Positions 31,287 through 52,835 of a DNA stretch of 64,000 bases are shown here, piece after piece; within the stretch, counting starts at the first letter, position 1, and every line of letters starts with the position of its first letter. Under the pieces are notes generated by a model that worked only from the letters and a program-made list of their open reading frames with translations, had not been told where the DNA came from and ran no database searches. Both the position numbers and the translations under genes were made by a program. Origin of the DNA: Rhizobium sp. NZLR1 (GTDB lineage Bacteria > Pseudomonadota > Alphaproteobacteria > Rhizobiales > Rhizobiaceae); the NCBI RefSeq assembly GCF_017357385.1, contig NZ_CP071632.1:2733501-2797500 (forward strand), read 5' to 3'.

Positions 31287-34200
31287 ATGGCCTTGAATAT
31301 TCTGGATACAAACGGCGCCCCAATGGCCAACACCGGCGCCGAGTTCGAAGCCTACGACGTTATCCGCTACTCTGAAGCCAATCCTTCCGGACCTGTCTCC
31401 CTCACCGTCTCCGACTCCTCCACCGCGGACCTAGCTGACGAACTGGGCTCGGTATCGGCGGATGTGACCGGCTCGAGCGGCGACAACACGATCACGACCG
31501 GTGCCGGCAACGACATCCTCTCAGGCGGCGACGGCGCGGACACACTGACCGGTGGCGCCGGCGACGACATAATCTACGGCAATGCCGGCAACGACAAATT
31601 GGTCGGCGGTGATGGCAACGATCGAATCACCGATGGCGGTTTTAACTTTGGACCTGAGGGCCCGCTGCCGGAAATCCTGAACATCGACGCAGGCAACGGC
31701 GACGACGTCATAACCATAGACAGCTTCGCTGCGTTTACGTCGGGAACGATTGACGGCGGTGATGGCATCGATGCGTTGCGCACCTGGTCGCTCCACGGCC
31801 TGACGCTCAACAATGTAGAAAACCTTGAAACGGCAGCATTTCAGATTAGCGGTTCGAGCGCAGAGTTCGAGAGCTTTGATAGGATCGTAAGGTCAACTGA
31901 CCCCGTCTTCAGTTATGACCCCTCGCTGGTGGTGATGGACAGCGCCCACCTCGATCTTTCCGACGAACTGGGAGATCTTGGCACTCTTGTCCGCGGCTTC
32001 TCCGGTATTGACGTCAAAACCGGCGACGGCGACGATGAGTTTGCCGGCAGCAACGTCAACGACATTTTCGACGGCAGCGGCGGTAGCGACCTCATCAATG
32101 GCAACGACGGCGATGATAAACTGACCGGCGGCGCCGGCAACGACACCATTGATGGCGGCGCGGGCATCGACACGGCTGCATTTGCAGGCAATTTCGCTGA
32201 TTACTCCTTCGCGGTCGACAATGGCAGTCGCGTCGTGACGAGCGTGCTGGAAGGCACGGATAGACTGACAGACGTTGAATTCGCGCGCTTTGCCGATGGC
32301 GTCTACGACTTCGGGACGGAAACCTTCACGGTCAACAGCACCGAGCCGGGCACCCCGCTGAATATTCTGGACACGAATGGCGCGACGATTACCAAAATCG
32401 GCGCTGAGTTCGAAGCCTACGACGTCATCCGCGACTCCGAAATCAATCCTCTCGTCCCGGTCAACCTAGTCATCTCGGATTCAGGCACTGTAGACCTTTC
32501 CGACGAACTGGGCTCTGGCTCCGCCAATGTGATCGGCACAAGCGGCAACGATGTGATTACGACAGGCGCAGGCAACGACAATATTGCAGGCGGCGACGGC
32601 GCAGACACGCTGAACGGCGGCGCAGGATACGACAGCCTCAATGGTGGCGTTGGCAATGACACGCTGAATGGCGGTGACGGCAATGACCACATCTCTGGCG
32701 ACGTCGGGAACGACGTGATCAGAGGCGGCGCTGGCAACGATACGATTGACGATGGTGAACTTTTCGGCCTAAGCGCGGAAGTCATTGACATCAATGCGGG
32801 CGACGGCAACGATTCCATAAGCGTAGGAACATTGGCTCCGCTGAATTCCGGAACGATTGATGGCGGCGATGGGATCGATACGCTGCAAGCCGCTTCGCTC
32901 CGGGGCTTGACGATCAAAAACATCGAAGTCCTTGAGACGGCAGGATGGTCGGTCGCCGGATCGAGCGCACAATTGGAAAGCTTCGATAAAATCGTCTGGT
33001 CGACCGATCCGTTTGGCGACTTTCGCGCCGCAGTGACACTGACGGACAGCGCCCACCTCGATCTCGCCGACGAGTTGGGAGATCTGGGAGCGTTCGTCGA
33101 CGGCGATGCCTTCGGCATTGACGTCAAGACCGGCGGCGGTAACGACGAGTTCACCGGCACCGACGGCAACGACATTTTCGACGGCAGCGGTGGCAACGAC
33201 ATCCTCAATGGCAATGCCGGCGACGACAAATTGACCGGCGGCGCCGGCAACGACACCATTAATGGCGGCGCGGGCATCGACACGGCGCTGTTCGCAGGCA
33301 ATTTCGTCGATTATTCCTTTGCGTTGAACAATGGCGATCACTTCCTCACAAGTGTTGCGGAAGGGACGGATACGCTGACAGGCGTCGAATTCGCCCGCTT
33401 TGCCGATGGCCTCTACGATTTCGGCACGGAAACCTTCACAAGCAATGATACCCAACCGAATGTGCCTTTGAATATCCTCGATACGTATGGCTTCATAACG
33501 ACCATGACCGGCGCCGAGTTCGAAGCCTACGATGTCATCCGCAACTCGCCAACCGATCCTCTCGCCCCCGTCATTCTGTTCCTTTCAGATTCCGGGACGG
33601 TAGACCTTTCTGACGAACTGGGCTCGGCCGTCGCAGATGTGACCGACTTCGGCGGAGGCGATTCGATCATCACCACCGGCGCAGGCAGCGATAAAATCGC
33701 AGGCGGTTACGGCGCCGATACGTTGAACGGCGGCGACGGAAACGATTGGATCCATGGTGGAGATGGCAACGACACTCTGAACGGCGGTGATGGCAGTGAT
33801 TTGCTCACGGGCGGAGATGGCAATGACATTCTGAATGGAGGCGACGGCGATGACCAGCTCTCGGGCAACACCGGGAATGACGTCATCAGAGGCGGCGCCG
33901 GCAACGATTTTATCTCGGATGGTGAACTGTTCGACGTTACCCCTGAGGTCTACGACATCGATGCGGGCGAGGGCGACGATGCCATAACTATTCAAAGATA
34001 TGATTCACTGGCTTCCGGAGCAATCGACGGCGGTGCCGGGATTGATACCTTGCAAGCCTCCACGCTGACAGGCCTGACGATCAAGAACATCGAAACCCTT
34101 CAAACGATTGGCCTGGTTGAGGGTTCGAGCGCGCAGTTCGAAAGCTTTGATAAGATCATCTGGTTGACCGATCCGTTCGACAGTTCGCGCGCGTCATTAG

Positions 34201-35198
34201 CTGTGACGGATGGCAACCATCTCGACCTTTCCGATGAGCTGGGAGATGTCGGGGCGTTCATTACCGGTTACACCTCCGGCATCGACGTCAAGACCGGCGG
34301 CGGCGCCGACGAGTTTGTCGGCACCAACGGCAACGATATTTTCGACGGCAGTGGAGGCAACGACCTTTTCAATGGCCGTGCCGGCGACGACAAATTGATC
34401 GGCGGCGCAGGCATCGACACCGCGATCTTCTCAGGCAATTTCGCCAATTATTCCCTGGCTTTGAACAATGGCGATCACATCCTGACCAGCGCCGAGGAAG
34501 GAACCGATACGCTGACAGGCATCGAATTCGCGCGTTTTTCCGATGGCGTCTACGATTTCGCCACGGAAACATTCAAACTCAACAATACGGCACCGACCAA
34601 TATCCAGCTCTCGAAAACCTCCCTCTCCGAGGATACACCGATCTGGACAACGCTCGGCCTGCTGAGCGCCAAAGACTCAGACGGCGACAAGCTTACTTAC
34701 AAGCTCATCGACGGCGCCGACGATCACTTCCGCCTCAATGGCAATCGCATCGTTACCTCGAAGGCCTTCGACTACGAGACGGACAAATCCCACACGATCA
34801 AGGTTGCCGTCTCCGACGGCAAGGTCACCGTCGAAAAGGCCATCACGATCAACGTGCTCGACGTCAACGAAACGCCGATCAACCACGCTCCGATCAAGCT
34901 CTCGTTCTCGCGCAGCTCGGTCTCCGAGAACGTCGCGATCGGCACATCGGTCGGTCTCCTCTCAGCAGTCGATCCGGAAGGCGGCACGGTGAAGTGGCGG
35001 CTGACCGATGATGCGGACGGCATCTTCAAGCTCGTCGGCAACAAGATCCAGACGAAGGCCGCGATCGACTTCGAAAGCAACCACAGCCTGACCTTCACCG
35101 CCGAAGCCTATGACGCGGCTGGAAACACCACCAGCCACGACTTCACGTTCGCCGTGAAGGACGTCTTCGAGCCATCGTTTTCGAGCCTGCTGCACTAA
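31287..35198 (+). CDS. Large RTX-like repeat protein with cadherin-like C-terminus, paralogue 1
   Basis: A 1303-residue acidic protein with no signal peptide. Three modules of about 365 residues start at residues 1, 358 and 728, each opening LNILDT. Each module holds two units in which AEFEAYDVIR- or AQFESFDKI-type sequence is followed by DLSDELG, a run of calcium-binding GGxGxD nonapeptides, and NIDAGDGND...IDGGDGIDTL...LTIKNIE. Two cadherin-like domains end the protein (about 1101-1303). This fits a type I secreted calcium-binding surface or adhesion protein, though no ABC exporter is in the window. The stop codon replaces a residue present in paralogue 2. Confidence 0.82.
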   Translation: MALNILDTNGAPMANTGAEFEAYDVIRYSEANPSGPVSLTVSDSSTADLADELGSVSADVTGSSGDNTITTGAGNDILSGGDGADTLTGGAGDDIIYGNAGNDKLVGGDGNDRITDGGFNFGPEGPLPEILNIDAGNGDDVITIDSFAAFTSGTIDGGDGIDALRTWSLHGLTLNNVENLETAAFQISGSSAEFESFDRIVRSTDPVFSYDPSLVVMDSAHLDLSDELGDLGTLVRGFSGIDVKTGDGDDEFAGSNVNDIFDGSGGSDLINGNDGDDKLTGGAGNDTIDGGAGIDTAAFAGNFADYSFAVDNGSRVVTSVLEGTDRLTDVEFARFADGVYDFGTETFTVNSTEPGTPLNILDTNGATITKIGAEFEAYDVIRDSEINPLVPVNLVISDSGTVDLSDELGSGSANVIGTSGNDVITTGAGNDNIAGGDGADTLNGGAGYDSLNGGVGNDTLNGGDGNDHISGDVGNDVIRGGAGNDTIDDGELFGLSAEVIDINAGDGNDSISVGTLAPLNSGTIDGGDGIDTLQAASLRGLTIKNIEVLETAGWSVAGSSAQLESFDKIVWSTDPFGDFRAAVTLTDSAHLDLADELGDLGAFVDGDAFGIDVKTGGGNDEFTGTDGNDIFDGSGGNDILNGNAGDDKLTGGAGNDTINGGAGIDTALFAGNFVDYSFALNNGDHFLTSVAEGTDTLTGVEFARFADGLYDFGTETFTSNDTQPNVPLNILDTYGFITTMTGAEFEAYDVIRNSPTDPLAPVILFLSDSGTVDLSDELGSAVADVTDFGGGDSIITTGAGSDKIAGGYGADTLNGGDGNDWIHGGDGNDTLNGGDGSDLLTGGDGNDILNGGDGDDQLSGNTGNDVIRGGAGNDFISDGELFDVTPEVYDIDAGEGDDAITIQRYDSLASGAIDGGAGIDTLQASTLTGLTIKNIETLQTIGLVEGSSAQFESFDKIIWLTDPFDSSRASLAVTDGNHLDLSDELGDVGAFITGYTSGIDVKTGGGADEFVGTNGNDIFDGSGGNDLFNGRAGDDKLIGGAGIDTAIFSGNFANYSLALNNGDHILTSAEEGTDTLTGIEFARFSDGVYDFATETFKLNNTAPTNIQLSKTSLSEDTPIWTTLGLLSAKDSDGDKLTYKLIDGADDHFRLNGNRIVTSKAFDYETDKSHTIKVAVSDGKVTVEKAITINVLDVNETPINHAPIKLSFSRSSVSENVAIGTSVGLLSAVDPEGGTVKWRLTDDADGIFKLVGNKIQTKAAIDFESNHSLTFTAEAYDAAGNTTSHDFTFAVKDVFEPSFSSLLH

Positions 35199-35273
35199 GC
35201 GCTGATCTAACCTCAACATGATCGCTCCCAGATTCAGGGATGCGTCGCCAACCTCTTTTTTGAAAGTTTGAAT

Positions 35274-38060
35274 ATGGCCTTGAACATTCTGGACACCAAC
35301 GGCGCTACAATTACCAAGACCGGCGCTGAATTCGAAGCTTACGACGTTATCCGCTACTCCGCCGCTAATCCTCTCTCCGCCGTCGCCCTCACCGTCTCAG
35401 ATTCCAGCGTGGCAGACCTCGCCGACGAGTTGGGCTCGGTTTCCGCGAGCGTCAGGGGCTCGAGCGGCCCCAATACGATCACGACGGGCGCCGGCAACGA
35501 CACCATAGTGAGTGGTGGTGGCGCAGACACGCTGAGCGGCGGCGCCGGTAACGACTTGCTCAATGGTGAAGCAGGCAATGACACGCTGAATGGCGGCGAT
35601 GGCAATGACGAGATTTACGGCGGCGTCGGCAATGACGTCCTCAAGGGCGGCGCGGGTAATGACACGATTAGCGACGGAGATTATTTTTCCGATGTCGCTG
35701 AAACCTTCAATATCGATGCCGGCGATGGCAACGACAAAGTGATTTTGTTCACCGGCTCTTTCGCCAAGATATCGGGAACGATAGACGGCGGGGCCGGCAC
35801 CGACACGCTGCAAGCCAATGATCTGACAGGCCTGACGATCAAGAACGTCGAGATTCTCCAGCCTGCGACATCCAGCGTGACCGCATCGACGGCACAATTC
35901 GAATCCTTCGATAAAATCATCGGTACCGGCTCCGATTCTTCCGTGCAGCTGGTCTTGACAGACGGCGCCCATGTCGATCTTTCCGACGAGTTGGCAGGCA
36001 AGCTAAACTACATCTTTGGCGGCCCTAACGTTTCCGGCATCGACGTCACGACCGGGAGCGCTCGCGACCTTCTCACCGGAACTGCCGGCAACGACATCTT
36101 CGACGCCGGCGACGGTAACGACTACATCAACGGCAATGGTGGAAATGACCGGTTGATCGGTGGCAAGGGCGACGACGTAATCGTCGATGGTGATGTTTCG
36201 AGTCTTTCATCAGAAGTCTTCAATATCGATGCCGGCGACGGAAACGATATCGTAACCCTCCAGACACAATCTCAGGGGCTTTCCGGCACGATCGATGGCG
36301 GTACCGGCATTGATACACTGCGCGTATCCAGGATAGCCGGGCTGACGATCAAGAATTTCGAAATTCTTGAAACGAATGAGTATGGCTTTACCGGTTCATC
36401 CGCGCAGTTAGAAAGCTTTGACAAAATCTCGGGAACGAAGGACGCTTTCGGCTCCTCCATCGCCATCTTGAGATTGACGGACAAGGCCCATGTCGATCTT
36501 TCCGACGAGCTTGGAAACAGTCGGGCTAGTATATTTGGCACGGTCTCCGGTATTGACGTCAAGACTGGCGGCGGTGACGACATATTTACGGGAACCGACG
36601 GCAACGATACTTTCGATGGTAGCGGCGGCAACGACACGATCAACGGCAATGCCGGCAACGACAAATTGACCGGCGGCGATGGCAACGATCAGATCTTCGG
36701 CGGCGTCGGAAATGACGTCATCAAAGGCGGCGCGGGCGACGATAAAATCACCGATGGCGATAATATGTCGACCGCCCCTGAGGCCTTCGATATTGATGCC
36801 GGCGATGGCAATGATGCCATCAACTTGCAGTCACACTCTTCCGCGCTTTCCGGAGTAATCGATGGCGGCGCCGGCACGGACACGCTACAGGTCATCAAAC
36901 CTACTTTAGGCCCGGGGCAGGAATCCATCGGGCTTGCCGGCCTGACGATCAAGAATGTTGAAATTCTTGAAACGGCGGGAGCCGAGGTTCTCGCTTCGGC
37001 CGCCCAGTTCGAAAGCTTCGACAAGATCGTCAAATACGACAAGCCGGGTTACGAGAACGATGTCCTCGCACTGACGCTGACAGACAGCGCCCATGCTGAC
37101 CTCTCCGACGAACTGGCAAACCGCCACGTCGACATCTATGGCACCGCCTTCGGTATCGACGTCAAGACCGGCGGTGGCGACGACTATTTCTTCGGGACCG
37201 ATGGCAACGACCGATTCGAAGGTGGCGCCGGCAATGACGCACTGTTTGGCGGCGCTGGCATCGACACGGCGGTCTTCTCCGGCAATTTTGCCAATTATAC
37301 CTTCGCGATGAACAATGCTGATCATATCCTGACGAGCGCCAAAGAGGGTACCGATACGCTGCGTGATATCGAAATCGCTCGTTTTGCCGATGGTGTCTAC
37401 GATTTCGCCAAGGGCACCTTCACGGCTGACCATAATGCCGCGCCGACCAATATCCAGTTATCGAAAACCTCCCTGCTGGAAAATACCCCGATCTGGACCA
37501 CGCTCGGCCTGCTCAGCGCAAAGGACGCCGATGGCGACACGCTTACCTACAAGCTAATCGACGGCGCCGACGATCACTTCCGCCTCAATGGCAATCGCAT
37601 CGTCACCTCGAAGGCTTTGGACTACGAGACAGCCAAATCGTACACGATCAAGGTGGCGGTGTCCGACGGTAAGGTCACGGTCGAAAAGGACATCACGATC
37701 AACGTCCTCGACGTCAACGAAGCCCCAGTCAACAAGGCGCCGATCAATCTTGCCTTCTCGCGCGGCTCGATATCCGAGAATGTCGCGATCGGCACCTCGG
37801 TCGGCCTTCTCTCCGCCGTGGATCCGGAAGGCGGCGCGGTGAAGTGGCGGCTGACCGACGACGCGGACGGCATCTTCAAGCTCGTCGGCAACAAGATCCA
37901 GACGAAGGCTGCGATCGACTTCGAAAGCGACCACAGCCTGACCTTCACCGCCGAGGCCTATGACGCGGCTGGAAACACCACCAGCCACGATTTCACGATC
38001 GCCGTGAAGGACGTCTTCGAGCCGTCGTTTACCAGCCTGTCGCATGAAGCGTTGATTTAA
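35274..38060 (+). CDS. Large RTX-like repeat protein with cadherin-like C-terminus, paralogue 2
   Basis: A 928-residue paralogue 75 bases downstream, starting with the same MALNILDTNGA. It has four FESFD/DLSDELG units instead of six, separated by RTX nonapeptide runs (GGDGNDQIFGGVGNDVIKGG). The same two cadherin-like domains follow, near-identical to paralogue 1. It ends FTSLSHEALI, four residues longer than paralogue 1. Secretion by a type I system is inferred from the RTX runs and absence of an N-terminal signal. A TTG at 35268 is a less likely start. Confidence 0.82.
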   Translation: MALNILDTNGATITKTGAEFEAYDVIRYSAANPLSAVALTVSDSSVADLADELGSVSASVRGSSGPNTITTGAGNDTIVSGGGADTLSGGAGNDLLNGEAGNDTLNGGDGNDEIYGGVGNDVLKGGAGNDTISDGDYFSDVAETFNIDAGDGNDKVILFTGSFAKISGTIDGGAGTDTLQANDLTGLTIKNVEILQPATSSVTASTAQFESFDKIIGTGSDSSVQLVLTDGAHVDLSDELAGKLNYIFGGPNVSGIDVTTGSARDLLTGTAGNDIFDAGDGNDYINGNGGNDRLIGGKGDDVIVDGDVSSLSSEVFNIDAGDGNDIVTLQTQSQGLSGTIDGGTGIDTLRVSRIAGLTIKNFEILETNEYGFTGSSAQLESFDKISGTKDAFGSSIAILRLTDKAHVDLSDELGNSRASIFGTVSGIDVKTGGGDDIFTGTDGNDTFDGSGGNDTINGNAGNDKLTGGDGNDQIFGGVGNDVIKGGAGDDKITDGDNMSTAPEAFDIDAGDGNDAINLQSHSSALSGVIDGGAGTDTLQVIKPTLGPGQESIGLAGLTIKNVEILETAGAEVLASAAQFESFDKIVKYDKPGYENDVLALTLTDSAHADLSDELANRHVDIYGTAFGIDVKTGGGDDYFFGTDGNDRFEGGAGNDALFGGAGIDTAVFSGNFANYTFAMNNADHILTSAKEGTDTLRDIEIARFADGVYDFAKGTFTADHNAAPTNIQLSKTSLLENTPIWTTLGLLSAKDADGDTLTYKLIDGADDHFRLNGNRIVTSKALDYETAKSYTIKVAVSDGKVTVEKDITINVLDVNEAPVNKAPINLAFSRGSISENVAIGTSVGLLSAVDPEGGAVKWRLTDDADGIFKLVGNKIQTKAAIDFESDHSLTFTAEAYDAAGNTTSHDFTIAVKDVFEPSFTSLSHEALI

Positions 38061-50090: not shown

Positions 50091-51092
50091 ATGACGGCTT
50101 TGATCGAAGCCCGGGGCGTCAGCAAACGCTTCCGGCAGCACAAGAGATTTCCGGGCTTTCTGGGCGCGCTAAAGACGCTGGTGACGAGCGAATATACAGA
50201 GGTTCTGGCCGTTTCCGACATCGATTTCGACGTCGCGGCCGGCGAAGCTGTGGGGTATCTCGGCCCCAATGGCGCCGGCAAATCCACCATGATCAAGATG
50301 ATGACCGGCATCCTGGTACCGAGCGCCGGCACGCTTACCGTGCTTGGCCGCACACCGCATCTCAAGCGAATGGACAATGCGCGCGAGATCGGCGTTGTCT
50401 TCGGCCAGCGCAGTCAGCTGTGGTGGGACCTGCCGCTGGTCGACAGTTTCACCTTGCACCAGCGCATCTACGATATATCAGCCGCCCGCTATGCCGATAA
50501 CCTCCGGCGCTTCAGCGAGCTGCTCGACCTCACGCCCTTTCTCGACCGCGCGGTGCGCCAGCTCAGCCTCGGCCAGCGCATGCGCGCCGAGATCGTCATG
50601 TCGCTGCTGCACGATCCGAAGATCCTCTTTCTGGACGAACCGACCATCGGGCTCGACGTGGTCGCCAAGGATGCGGTGCGGCGCTTTCTTGCGGAGATCA
50701 ACCGCGAGCGCGGCGTCACCATCATCCTCACCACCCATGACCTGCAGGACATCGAAACCATCTGCCCGCGGCTGATCATGGTCGATCACTCGAGGCTGAT
50801 CTTCGACGGCGAATTGAGGAGCCTGCGCGGGGCATTGGGCTCGGCCCGGCGACTGACACTCGAATTTGCCAGCGATCCGGGACCTTTGCCGCTCAAAACG
50901 GCGTCGCTGGTCAGCGACGAGGGCCTGCGCAAGAATTATCTGATCGAGCGCGAAGACATATCGCTGGTCAAAATCCTTTCGGAGGTGGGAAGCGAGCGCG
51001 ACCTCAAGGATGTGGCGCTGCACGAGCCCGACATCGAAGAGGTCATCCGCACCTTCTACCAGGGCCGCGACGCCCGGGCGCGAGCATCATGA
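50091..51092 (+). CDS. ABC-2 type exporter, ATP-binding protein
   Basis: The 333-residue protein has Walker A GPNGAGKSTMIKMMTG, Q-loop GVVFGQRSQLWWDLP, signature RQLSLGQRMRAEI, Walker B ILFLDEPTIGLD and the H-loop in LTTHDLQDI. It drives the two permeases that follow. Its stop (TGA at 51090-51092) overlaps the first ATG of a 47-base tandem repeat. The substrate is not evident. Confidence 0.92.
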   Translation: MTALIEARGVSKRFRQHKRFPGFLGALKTLVTSEYTEVLAVSDIDFDVAAGEAVGYLGPNGAGKSTMIKMMTGILVPSAGTLTVLGRTPHLKRMDNAREIGVVFGQRSQLWWDLPLVDSFTLHQRIYDISAARYADNLRRFSELLDLTPFLDRAVRQLSLGQRMRAEIVMSLLHDPKILFLDEPTIGLDVVAKDAVRRFLAEINRERGVTIILTTHDLQDIETICPRLIMVDHSRLIFDGELRSLRGALGSARRLTLEFASDPGPLPLKTASLVSDEGLRKNYLIEREDISLVKILSEVGSERDLKDVALHEPDIEEVIRTFYQGRDARARAS

Positions 51093-51229
51093 GCGCTTAT
51101 TTCGCCTTCACCCGCAGTGCCCGGGCACGGACACCATGAGCGCCTATCTCGCCTTCACCCGCAACGCCCGGGCGCGGACACCATGAGCGCATATCTCGCC
51201 TTCACCCGAAACGCCCGGGCGCGGGCACC
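51089..51229 (+). repeat. Three tandem 47-base repeats at an ABC ATPase/permease junction
   Basis: Copies begin at 51089, 51136 and 51183, and a partial fourth begins the permease at 51230. Each starts ATGAGCGC and encodes a 16-residue peptide (MSAYFAFTRSARARTP in copy 1) ending in TGA, which overlaps the next ATG as ATGA. Each unit combines a copy of the ATPase gene end with the permease gene start. The chain implies repeated termination-reinitiation. No ribosome binding site is visible at each ATG. Confidence 0.9.
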
Positions 51230-52030
51230 ATGAGCGCTTATTTCGCCTTCACCCGAAGCGCCTTCCACGCGCAGCTCGCCTACCGCAACGAGGTCTGGGC
51301 CAACATCTTCGGCAAACTGGTGCAGGTCGTCGCCCGCGTCGCCATCTGGCTGGCCGTTTATGCCGGCGTCGGCGCAACCGTGGTCGACGGCGTCTCGCTG
51401 CAGCAGATGGTGACCTATGCGCTGCTCGGCGGCGCAGTGATGGGCGCCACCCGGCCTGAGAGGATCATCGGCGAGATCGGCCGGTCGCTCAAGACCGGTG
51501 ACATCGCTGTCTGGTTGCTCAAGCCGCTGTCCTATCCGCTCTATCTGTTCGCTAATGAATCCGGCAGCTTTTTCTATCGCCTGGCAACGCAGGTCATCCC
51601 GACCGTCGCCTTCACCGCATTGTTTTACGGCATGCTGCCGCCGGCAAGCCTGTTTGATGGCCTGATGTTCATTGCCTTCTGGGCGCTGTCCTTCGTGCTC
51701 GTATTTCTGATGTCGGCGGTCTCCGGGCTCGTCGCCTTCTGGCTGATGACGAGTTTCTCGCTGGACTGGATCCTCGGCGCCCTGCTGCATCTCTTCTCGG
51801 GCCTGCTGGTGCCATTCTGGTTCTTTCCCGAACCGCTGGCGACGATTGCCCGCCACCTGCCCTTCGCCTGGGTCGTCTATTATCCGAATGCGGTCTATCT
51901 CGGCAGGCTTTCGGCTGCCGACACCTGCCTTCATCTCGGCCTCGGCCTTGTCTGGGCCGGAGTGTTCCTCTTGGGCGTGCTCTGGCTGTGGCGCTCAGCC
52001 TCCCGCCGCATCACCGTGCAAGGAGGCTGA
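51230..52030 (+). CDS. ABC-2 type exporter, permease 1
   Basis: The 266-residue protein has about six membrane helices (VARVAIWLAVYAGVGATVV, AFTALFYGMLPPASL, LVFLMSAVSGLVAFWL). It begins MSAYFAFTRSAFHAQLAYRN, and shorter copies of that start lie upstream as tandem repeats. It follows the ATPase gene and precedes a second permease by one base. ABC-2 systems of this two-permease type export lipids, sugars or drugs; the substrate is unknown. Confidence 0.85.
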   Translation: MSAYFAFTRSAFHAQLAYRNEVWANIFGKLVQVVARVAIWLAVYAGVGATVVDGVSLQQMVTYALLGGAVMGATRPERIIGEIGRSLKTGDIAVWLLKPLSYPLYLFANESGSFFYRLATQVIPTVAFTALFYGMLPPASLFDGLMFIAFWALSFVLVFLMSAVSGLVAFWLMTSFSLDWILGALLHLFSGLLVPFWFFPEPLATIARHLPFAWVVYYPNAVYLGRLSAADTCLHLGLGLVWAGVFLLGVLWLWRSASRRITVQGG

Positions 52031-52031
52031 C

Positions 52032-52835
52032 GTGCTCATTCATCACCTCCGCGTCATTCCGTTGCTGGTGCGGATGCATGTCCGCTCAAAGATGGAATAT
52101 CGCGGCGCTTTCTGGCTCGATCGTTTCGCGCAGATCCTTTCCTATGGCAGCGTCTTCGCCACCATTGGCATCCTGCTCGCCCGCTTTCACACGCTGGGCG
52201 GCTGGACCTTGCCGGAGCTGGCGCTGTTGTTCAGCTTCCAGCTGCTCGCCTATTCTCTCGGCGCCGCGATGAGCTTCGTGCAATTGCGCGACCTTGAAGA
52301 ACTGGTGCGGCTCGGCACTTACGATACGCTGCTGGTCAAGCCATTGAGCCCCTGGGCCTACCTGGTCTTTTCCGGCCTCAATATCGGCTATGCCGGCCAT
52401 GTCATCCTCGCGGCAGCGCTGATGGGCTGGGCCATTCTGTCGGTCGACTTCACCTGGTCGGTTTGGTCCGTGTCGTTCCTCATTGCCACGCTCATCAGCG
52501 CGACGCTTTTGACCGGTGCGCTGATCACCATGATCGGCGCGACGGCGCTGATGTGGGTGCGGTCCAACCATTTGTTTTCGATCTTCTTCGGCTTTTGGGA
52601 ACTGACCCGTTACCCCCTTAACATCTTTCCCGGCGGCATCCAGATCACCCTCATCACCGCGGTTCCGTTGGCCCTGACCAGTTCGGTCCCGGTCGGCGCC
52701 CTGCTCGGCAAATCTATCCCGCTCCTTGGGGACTGGGCCGGGCCAGTGGCGCTCGCCGCCGGCCCCGTTTGGGTGTTGATATCGATCGCTCACTGGCGAT
52801 ACGCCACCGGCAAATACCAGGGCGCCGGCGGTTGA
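52032..52835 (+). CDS. ABC-2 type exporter, permease 2
   Basis: A 267-residue membrane protein with about six helices. It has RVIPLLVRMHVRSKMEYRGA at the N-terminus and SFVQLRDLEELVRLGTYDTL in the middle. The start is GTG at 52032, well placed after AAGGAGG, one base beyond the permease 1 stop. Together with permease 1 it forms the heterodimeric membrane part of the exporter. Confidence 0.85.
   Translation: MLIHHLRVIPLLVRMHVRSKMEYRGAFWLDRFAQILSYGSVFATIGILLARFHTLGGWTLPELALLFSFQLLAYSLGAAMSFVQLRDLEELVRLGTYDTLLVKPLSPWAYLVFSGLNIGYAGHVILAAALMGWAILSVDFTWSVWSVSFLIATLISATLLTGALITMIGATALMWVRSNHLFSIFFGFWELTRYPLNIFPGGIQITLITAVPLALTSSVPVGALLGKSIPLLGDWAGPVALAAGPVWVLISIAHWRYATGKYQGAGG

Follow-up and report, generated by a model that had tools for sequence, protein, structure and literature searches.

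Three tandem units of 47 nucleotides (nt) join the end of an ATP-binding cassette (ABC) ATPase gene to the start of a PF06182 permease gene in Rhizobium sp. NZLR1, within a 64,000-nt stretch of contig NZ_CP071632.1 that we call the window. We propose that this array probably arose by tandem duplication of the termination-reinitiation junction between the two genes, and that the copies were kept as stepping stones leading ribosomes from the ATPase to the permease. The proposal draws on sequence comparison across related species: all 15 units found at orthologous junctions are exactly 47 nt long, open, and bounded by ATGA at both ends.

Organization of the array

The units occupy positions 51089-51135, 51136-51182 and 51183-51229 of the window, on the forward strand, as do all genes described here. 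Each consists of 27 nt resembling the start of the permease gene followed by 20 nt resembling the end of the ATPase gene, and each yields a mini open reading frame (mini-ORF) of 16 residues, spanning 17 codons or 51 nt with its stop, whose TGA overlaps the next ATG as ATGA. Mini-ORF 1 (51089-51139) encodes MSAYFAFTRSARARTP, mini-ORF 2 (51136-51186) MSAYLAFTRNARARTP and mini-ORF 3 (51183-51233) MSAYLAFTRNARARAP. As a first-pass annotation of this DNA had recognized, both flanking genes belong to the same ATGA chain: the stop of the ATPase gene (PF00005, 333 amino acids, 50091-51092) lies at 51090-51092 within the first ATGA (51089-51092), and the ATG of permease 1 (PF06182, ABC2_membrane_6, 266 amino acids, 51230-52030) lies at 51230, overlapping the stop of mini-ORF 3. 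The last 20 nt of the ATPase gene before the first ATG resemble the second half of the unit. The threefold repeat is recovered by Tandem Repeats Finder (TRF), which reports an array at 51070-51262 with period 47, 4.1 copies (with the incomplete ones at the ATPase end and the permease start included), 88% match and a score of 288, the highest of 11 tandem-repeat rows in the window.

Two details of that annotation need amendment. It gave the peptide as MSAY[FL]AFTR[SN]A plus six residues; the motif is right, and five further residues follow it. It also described the copies as differing mostly by synonymous changes. Six codons vary among the three copies when compared by eye, three of them synonymously (codons 3, 9 and 13) and three with a change of residue (codon 5, F/L; codon 10, S/N; codon 15, T/A). 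Overstated within the window, the synonymous pattern is real across species in the permease-like half of the unit, where several readings are possible.

The array is very unlikely to be an assembly artifact: the contig is 4.58 Mb long, all three copies differ, and nine other genomes carry one or two units of the same length. The array RNA folds slightly better than shuffled sequences (z = -1.93; 7/200), a signal too weak for RNA structure to serve as an explanation.

Distribution of units among orthologous junctions

When the proteins of 148 genus genomes were searched, 52 genomes had a permease match with E <= 1e-50. Of these, 47, the window included, are orthologues with 83-100% identity, and the junction was read in every one. 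Scanning named genomes then yielded 37 loci; at 29 the permease is identical to one already in the set, and the other eight are new. The resulting set has 55 junctions, with locus names taken from identical permeases. Units are present at 10 of the 55 and total 15: one in six loci (L006; L007, R. esperanzae CNPSo 668; L008, R. aethiopicum HBR26; L009; L010, R. pisi DSM 30132; L018, Rhizobium sp. R635), two in three loci (L003, R. lentis SEMIA 4036; L004; L005, Rhizobium sp. J15) and three in the window. Copy number, which the first-pass annotation had suggested comparing in relatives, varies from zero to three between related species. A bare 4-nt overlap is found at the remaining 45 junctions, including those of Devosia, and is written GTGA in L015.

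Beyond the genus, a draw of 394 genomes of the family contained matches in eight, five of them outside the genus. No array was seen in the printed stretches of 11 distant homologous loci (L094-L104, 37-52% identity), which were kept out of the 55-junction count. In two of these, L103 and L104, the permease frame continues in phase from the ATPase ATGA, with offsets of 45 and 63 nt, so that the permease has a longer N-terminus. Among the orthologues, the permease frame of L078, a metagenome-assembled genome of Devosia ginsengisoli, is open for 648 codons, compared with 264-266 in the other printed orthologues; it is perhaps a fusion of the two permeases or an effect of assembly.

Reinitiation along the chain

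Each of the four junctions in the window has a Shine-Dalgarno (SD) duplex energy between -3.5 and -4.5 kcal/mol, the median at random sites being -3.3; at the 15 later junctions of the arrays the best value is -4.5 kcal/mol. All these energies are for an assumed anti-SD sequence.

Published measurements show a dependence of reinitiation on distance. With 38 nt of spacing, reinitiation fell by 80-90% in two Escherichia coli gene pairs and disappeared in a third, and in Haloferax volcanii 22-23 nt left little or none of it (PMC10666635). Because coupling was mostly or fully lost at about 20-38 nt, permease 1 would be expected to fall silent behind a bare gap of 47-141 nt; and because SD matches at the window junctions are about random as well, the chain should be needed. 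In two E. coli pairs, 15 nt from the end of the upstream gene were enough (PMC10666635); each unit carries 20 nt of ATPase-like tail.

In the proposed mechanism, a ribosome ending the ATPase at ATGA would restart in the permease frame, enter the copied ATPase tail, this time in the ATPase frame, and stop at the next ATGA, repeating the cycle until the real permease start is reached. The permease and ATPase frames alternate because the unit length is 3n-1. Each added unit would be expected to cost some permease 1 translation. The array would persist chiefly through being tolerated, since the chain preserves coupling, and not for its peptides, while whole units may be gained or lost between lineages by slippage, deletion or recombination. 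Repeated reinitiation had been suggested in the first-pass annotation, and it is the best-supported reading, given the unbroken ATGA chains of all 15 units, the background SD matches in the window and the published distance dependence; that ribosomes truly walk the chain is inferred from these features.

We simulated 295,425 duplications, 20-120 nt long, across the 45 junctions that lack units. Duplications of length 3n-1 produced a chain in 97% of cases, those of length 3n+1 broke coupling in 99.9%, and those of length 3n gave an N-terminal extension in 76%. Since nearly all 3n-1 duplications give a chain, the array design needs no special selection to arise.

Constraint on the chain and on its peptides

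All 60 ATGA letters of the units are intact, while changes affect 77 of the 645 other letters (Fisher P = 0.0016, which is only approximate because the units are related). A single change would break the chain in about 10% of cases; no break is seen in at least 40 substitutions, for which the chance is about 1.4%, or 4% if 30 substitutions are assumed.

Evidence on the peptides is mixed and leans toward little constraint. The ratio of nonsynonymous to synonymous differences per site (pN/pS) is 0.23 in the permease-like codons 2-9 of the unit and 1.48 in the ATPase-like codons 12-16, compared with 0.13-0.16 in real permease heads and with 1.16 and 1.09 in the two other frames of the whole unit. 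Of the 63 differences between units and the permease head of the same locus, 44 are synonymous, where an absence of constraint predicts 26-30% (nominal P 1.8e-11, with shared changes counted repeatedly). Residues never seen in real permease heads occupy 8 of 120 unit codons versus 3 of 376 in leave-one-out heads (Fisher P = 0.0008), roughly an eightfold excess, all eight falling in four genomes (L003, L004, L008 and L009); badly altered units include MSVHIALTR in L008 and MSACPAFTR in L003. In total, 110 of the 120 unit codons occur in real heads. As 13 of 16 third-position synonyms do so too, this count cannot separate selection from inheritance, and for the same reason we give the synonymous excess less weight. 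We take these comparisons to mean that the chain is preserved; the synonymous pattern may come largely from permease ancestry or exchange.

Across species, synonymous divergence (pS) is 0.135 in the unit tails (codons 12-16), versus 0.45 in the unit heads and 0.285 in the permease body, although few sites are involved. Spread by recombination may account for the low value, or else a nucleotide-level requirement beside the restart site.

Origin and history of the unit

In trees of the two genes covering 53 loci (L081 and L082 were left out), the array is patchy: it is present in three of six members of the R. pisi group and in six of eight members of the group of R. lentis and R. aethiopicum HBR26, while the window stands alone with a weakly supported placement. 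The 17-nt unit tails lie within 0-3 letters of the nearest unit of another species. In the window, they show 1-2 differences from other species' units, versus 2-4 of 17 from the window's own ATPase tail, which is the most unit-like of all. Because tails are nearer to units of other species than to their own ATPase tails, the units probably share ancestry; a single origin probably preceded descent with loss or spread by recombination, and a separate local origin in each species is not supported. The second half of the unit was presumably derived from the ATPase end. As the resemblance is weak outside the window, this derivation is argued from position, frame and the window copy.

Dollo parsimony requires one gain and seven losses, and Fitch parsimony seven changes (shuffle mean 9.3, P 0.025, on the 53-locus tree); descent with losses and recombination could not be told apart on these counts. 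Unit number can change between close relatives, since the ATPases of L005 (two units) and L038 (none) are 98.4% identical. Across L002 and relatives, the window ATPase is nearest to that of R. phaseoli JHI366 (L011), at 94.7% over the 711 nt compared, whereas the window permease is not nearest to that of JHI366 (86.6%). This mismatch suggests a recombination breakpoint near the array, and the unit-like ATPase tail of the window fits local exchange. As to the length of 47 nt, microhomology is suggestive only: in the best zero-copy case, L014, 10 of 12 letters match at lag 47, and other lags often give longer exact matches.

Weighing the explanations

Several points weigh against the stepping-stone proposal. 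The distance rule derives from E. coli and Haloferax and is applied here by analogy; synthetic operons with coupling across 73-850 nt are cited in PMC10666635, and one of five tested overlapping pairs of E. coli was uncoupled (PMC6728339). SD energies at the first junction have a median of -4.8 and reach -9.0 kcal/mol (n = 55), the random 5% mark being -8.1. The phase of the array is not forced, because 3n duplications also keep the permease translated. The absence of broken chains in 15 related units is a modest statistic, and a shuffled unit interior stays open in 84% of cases. Taken alone, the synonymous excess relative to the permease heads would favor constraint on the peptide start. Finally, outside the window, a locus's own ATPase tail is 6-11 of 17 letters away from the unit tail.

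The long-range coupling and the strongest first-junction SD matches would also suit a permease 1 that starts independently, by scanning or de novo, behind an array that is an inert spacer. We hold this to be very improbable, as the SD match is at background both at the permease start of the window and at the later junctions, ATGA is invariant in all units, and none of the 10 arrays is 3n+1 or frame-broken. A functional peptide, whether regulatory or a permease-like decoy N-terminus, could explain why pN/pS in codons 2-9 is far below the 1.1-1.2 of the other two frames, as well as the synonymous excess. However, codons 12-16, which the permease could not supply, appear unconstrained; residues unseen in heads occur, though in four genomes; some units are badly altered; and synonymous differences would equally result if units had exchanged repeatedly with permease heads from other lineages. 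We therefore regard this explanation as improbable.

The array might instead be an adaptive rheostat in which unit number is selected, each reinitiation step lowering permease 1 relative to the ATPase and slippage setting the ratio. Copy number does differ between relatives as close as L005 and L038, and full coupling efficiency is not generally established (PMC6728339), but 45 of 55 orthologues manage without units and neutral gain and loss would give the same pattern; we consider such selection rather unlikely. Insertion of a mobile repeat akin to the mycobacterial interspersed repetitive units (MIRUs), whose mini-ORF design with a -4 overlap is the same (PMC12548453), is hardly credible. 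The unit resembles its flanking genes, and the four sites of the tail-plus-start motif in its own genome (at most three mismatches) all lie within the array. No dispersed copies were found with the tail motif (at most one mismatch) in the 148 genus genomes, where 13 sites in nine genomes all belong to this locus; one array genome, G080, is too diverged for this pattern.

Comparison with known systems

The units recall MIRUs in two respects. All 15 carry a small ORF in -4 overlap with the next frame and putatively coupled to it, and they are arranged in tandem, as in the mycobacterial senX3-regX3 interval, which holds three 77-bp units in H37Rv and two 77-bp units plus one of 53 bp in CDC1551 (PMC4213456). 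MIRUs occupy 41 places in Mycobacterium tuberculosis H37Rv (PMC2734929) and are described as apparently mobile (PMC12548453). In contrast, the 47-nt unit is found at a single locus in its own and the 148 genus genomes, and thus is not interspersed, and it resembles the gene ends of its own locus. Variation in unit number between strains is a feature of MIRUs; the comparison here, made among species, gives zero to three units.

With termination-reinitiation overlaps the array shares the ATGA junction (PMC6728339), and 4-nt overlaps are overrepresented among genes for subunits of the same complex (PMC10666635). Gene pairs of this kind have a stop/start overlap of 4 nt (or -1/-8); the 4-nt form occurs at all four window junctions and in the 45 zero-copy orthologues. 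Elsewhere there is one junction per gene pair, whereas here two to four stand in series. Bicistronic designs likewise use a short ORF to bring the ribosome to a gene (PMC12548453). They are engineered and have a single leader, whereas the array is natural and tandem. The leader of a bicistronic design has its own SD. By analogy, the array would function like a MIRU yet is not interspersed, and we place it among coupled gene junctions. No earlier description of the array or of a duplicated ATGA junction was found among the literature matches listed, subscription journals lying mostly outside the search.

Neighboring features

Permease 1, whose upstream SD-like match is at background level, is followed by permease 2 (PF06182, 267 amino acids, 52032-52835), which has a GTG start and a strong SD-like match (duplex energy -13.1 kcal/mol). 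Elsewhere in the window, at 32589-35666, TRF reports several tandem arrays of 27/54 nt with a GGDGND-like translation, which we take to be of the kind found in calcium-binding RTX repeat proteins.

Implications

The array illustrates how DNA inserted at a gene overlap could be tolerated, even replicated, while translational coupling is retained. Its orthologues offer a natural series of zero, one, two and three units for gauging the cost of each reinitiation step, and the 3n-1 rule predicts other places for such arrays. Copy-number tuning of permease dose is possible. A broader and doubtful idea is that of an evolvable cascade, in which any 4-nt overlap could copy itself by 3n-1 duplication and unit number would set downstream dose. 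If true, such junctions would form a general class of self-propagating, seamless variable-number tandem repeats of bacterial expression.
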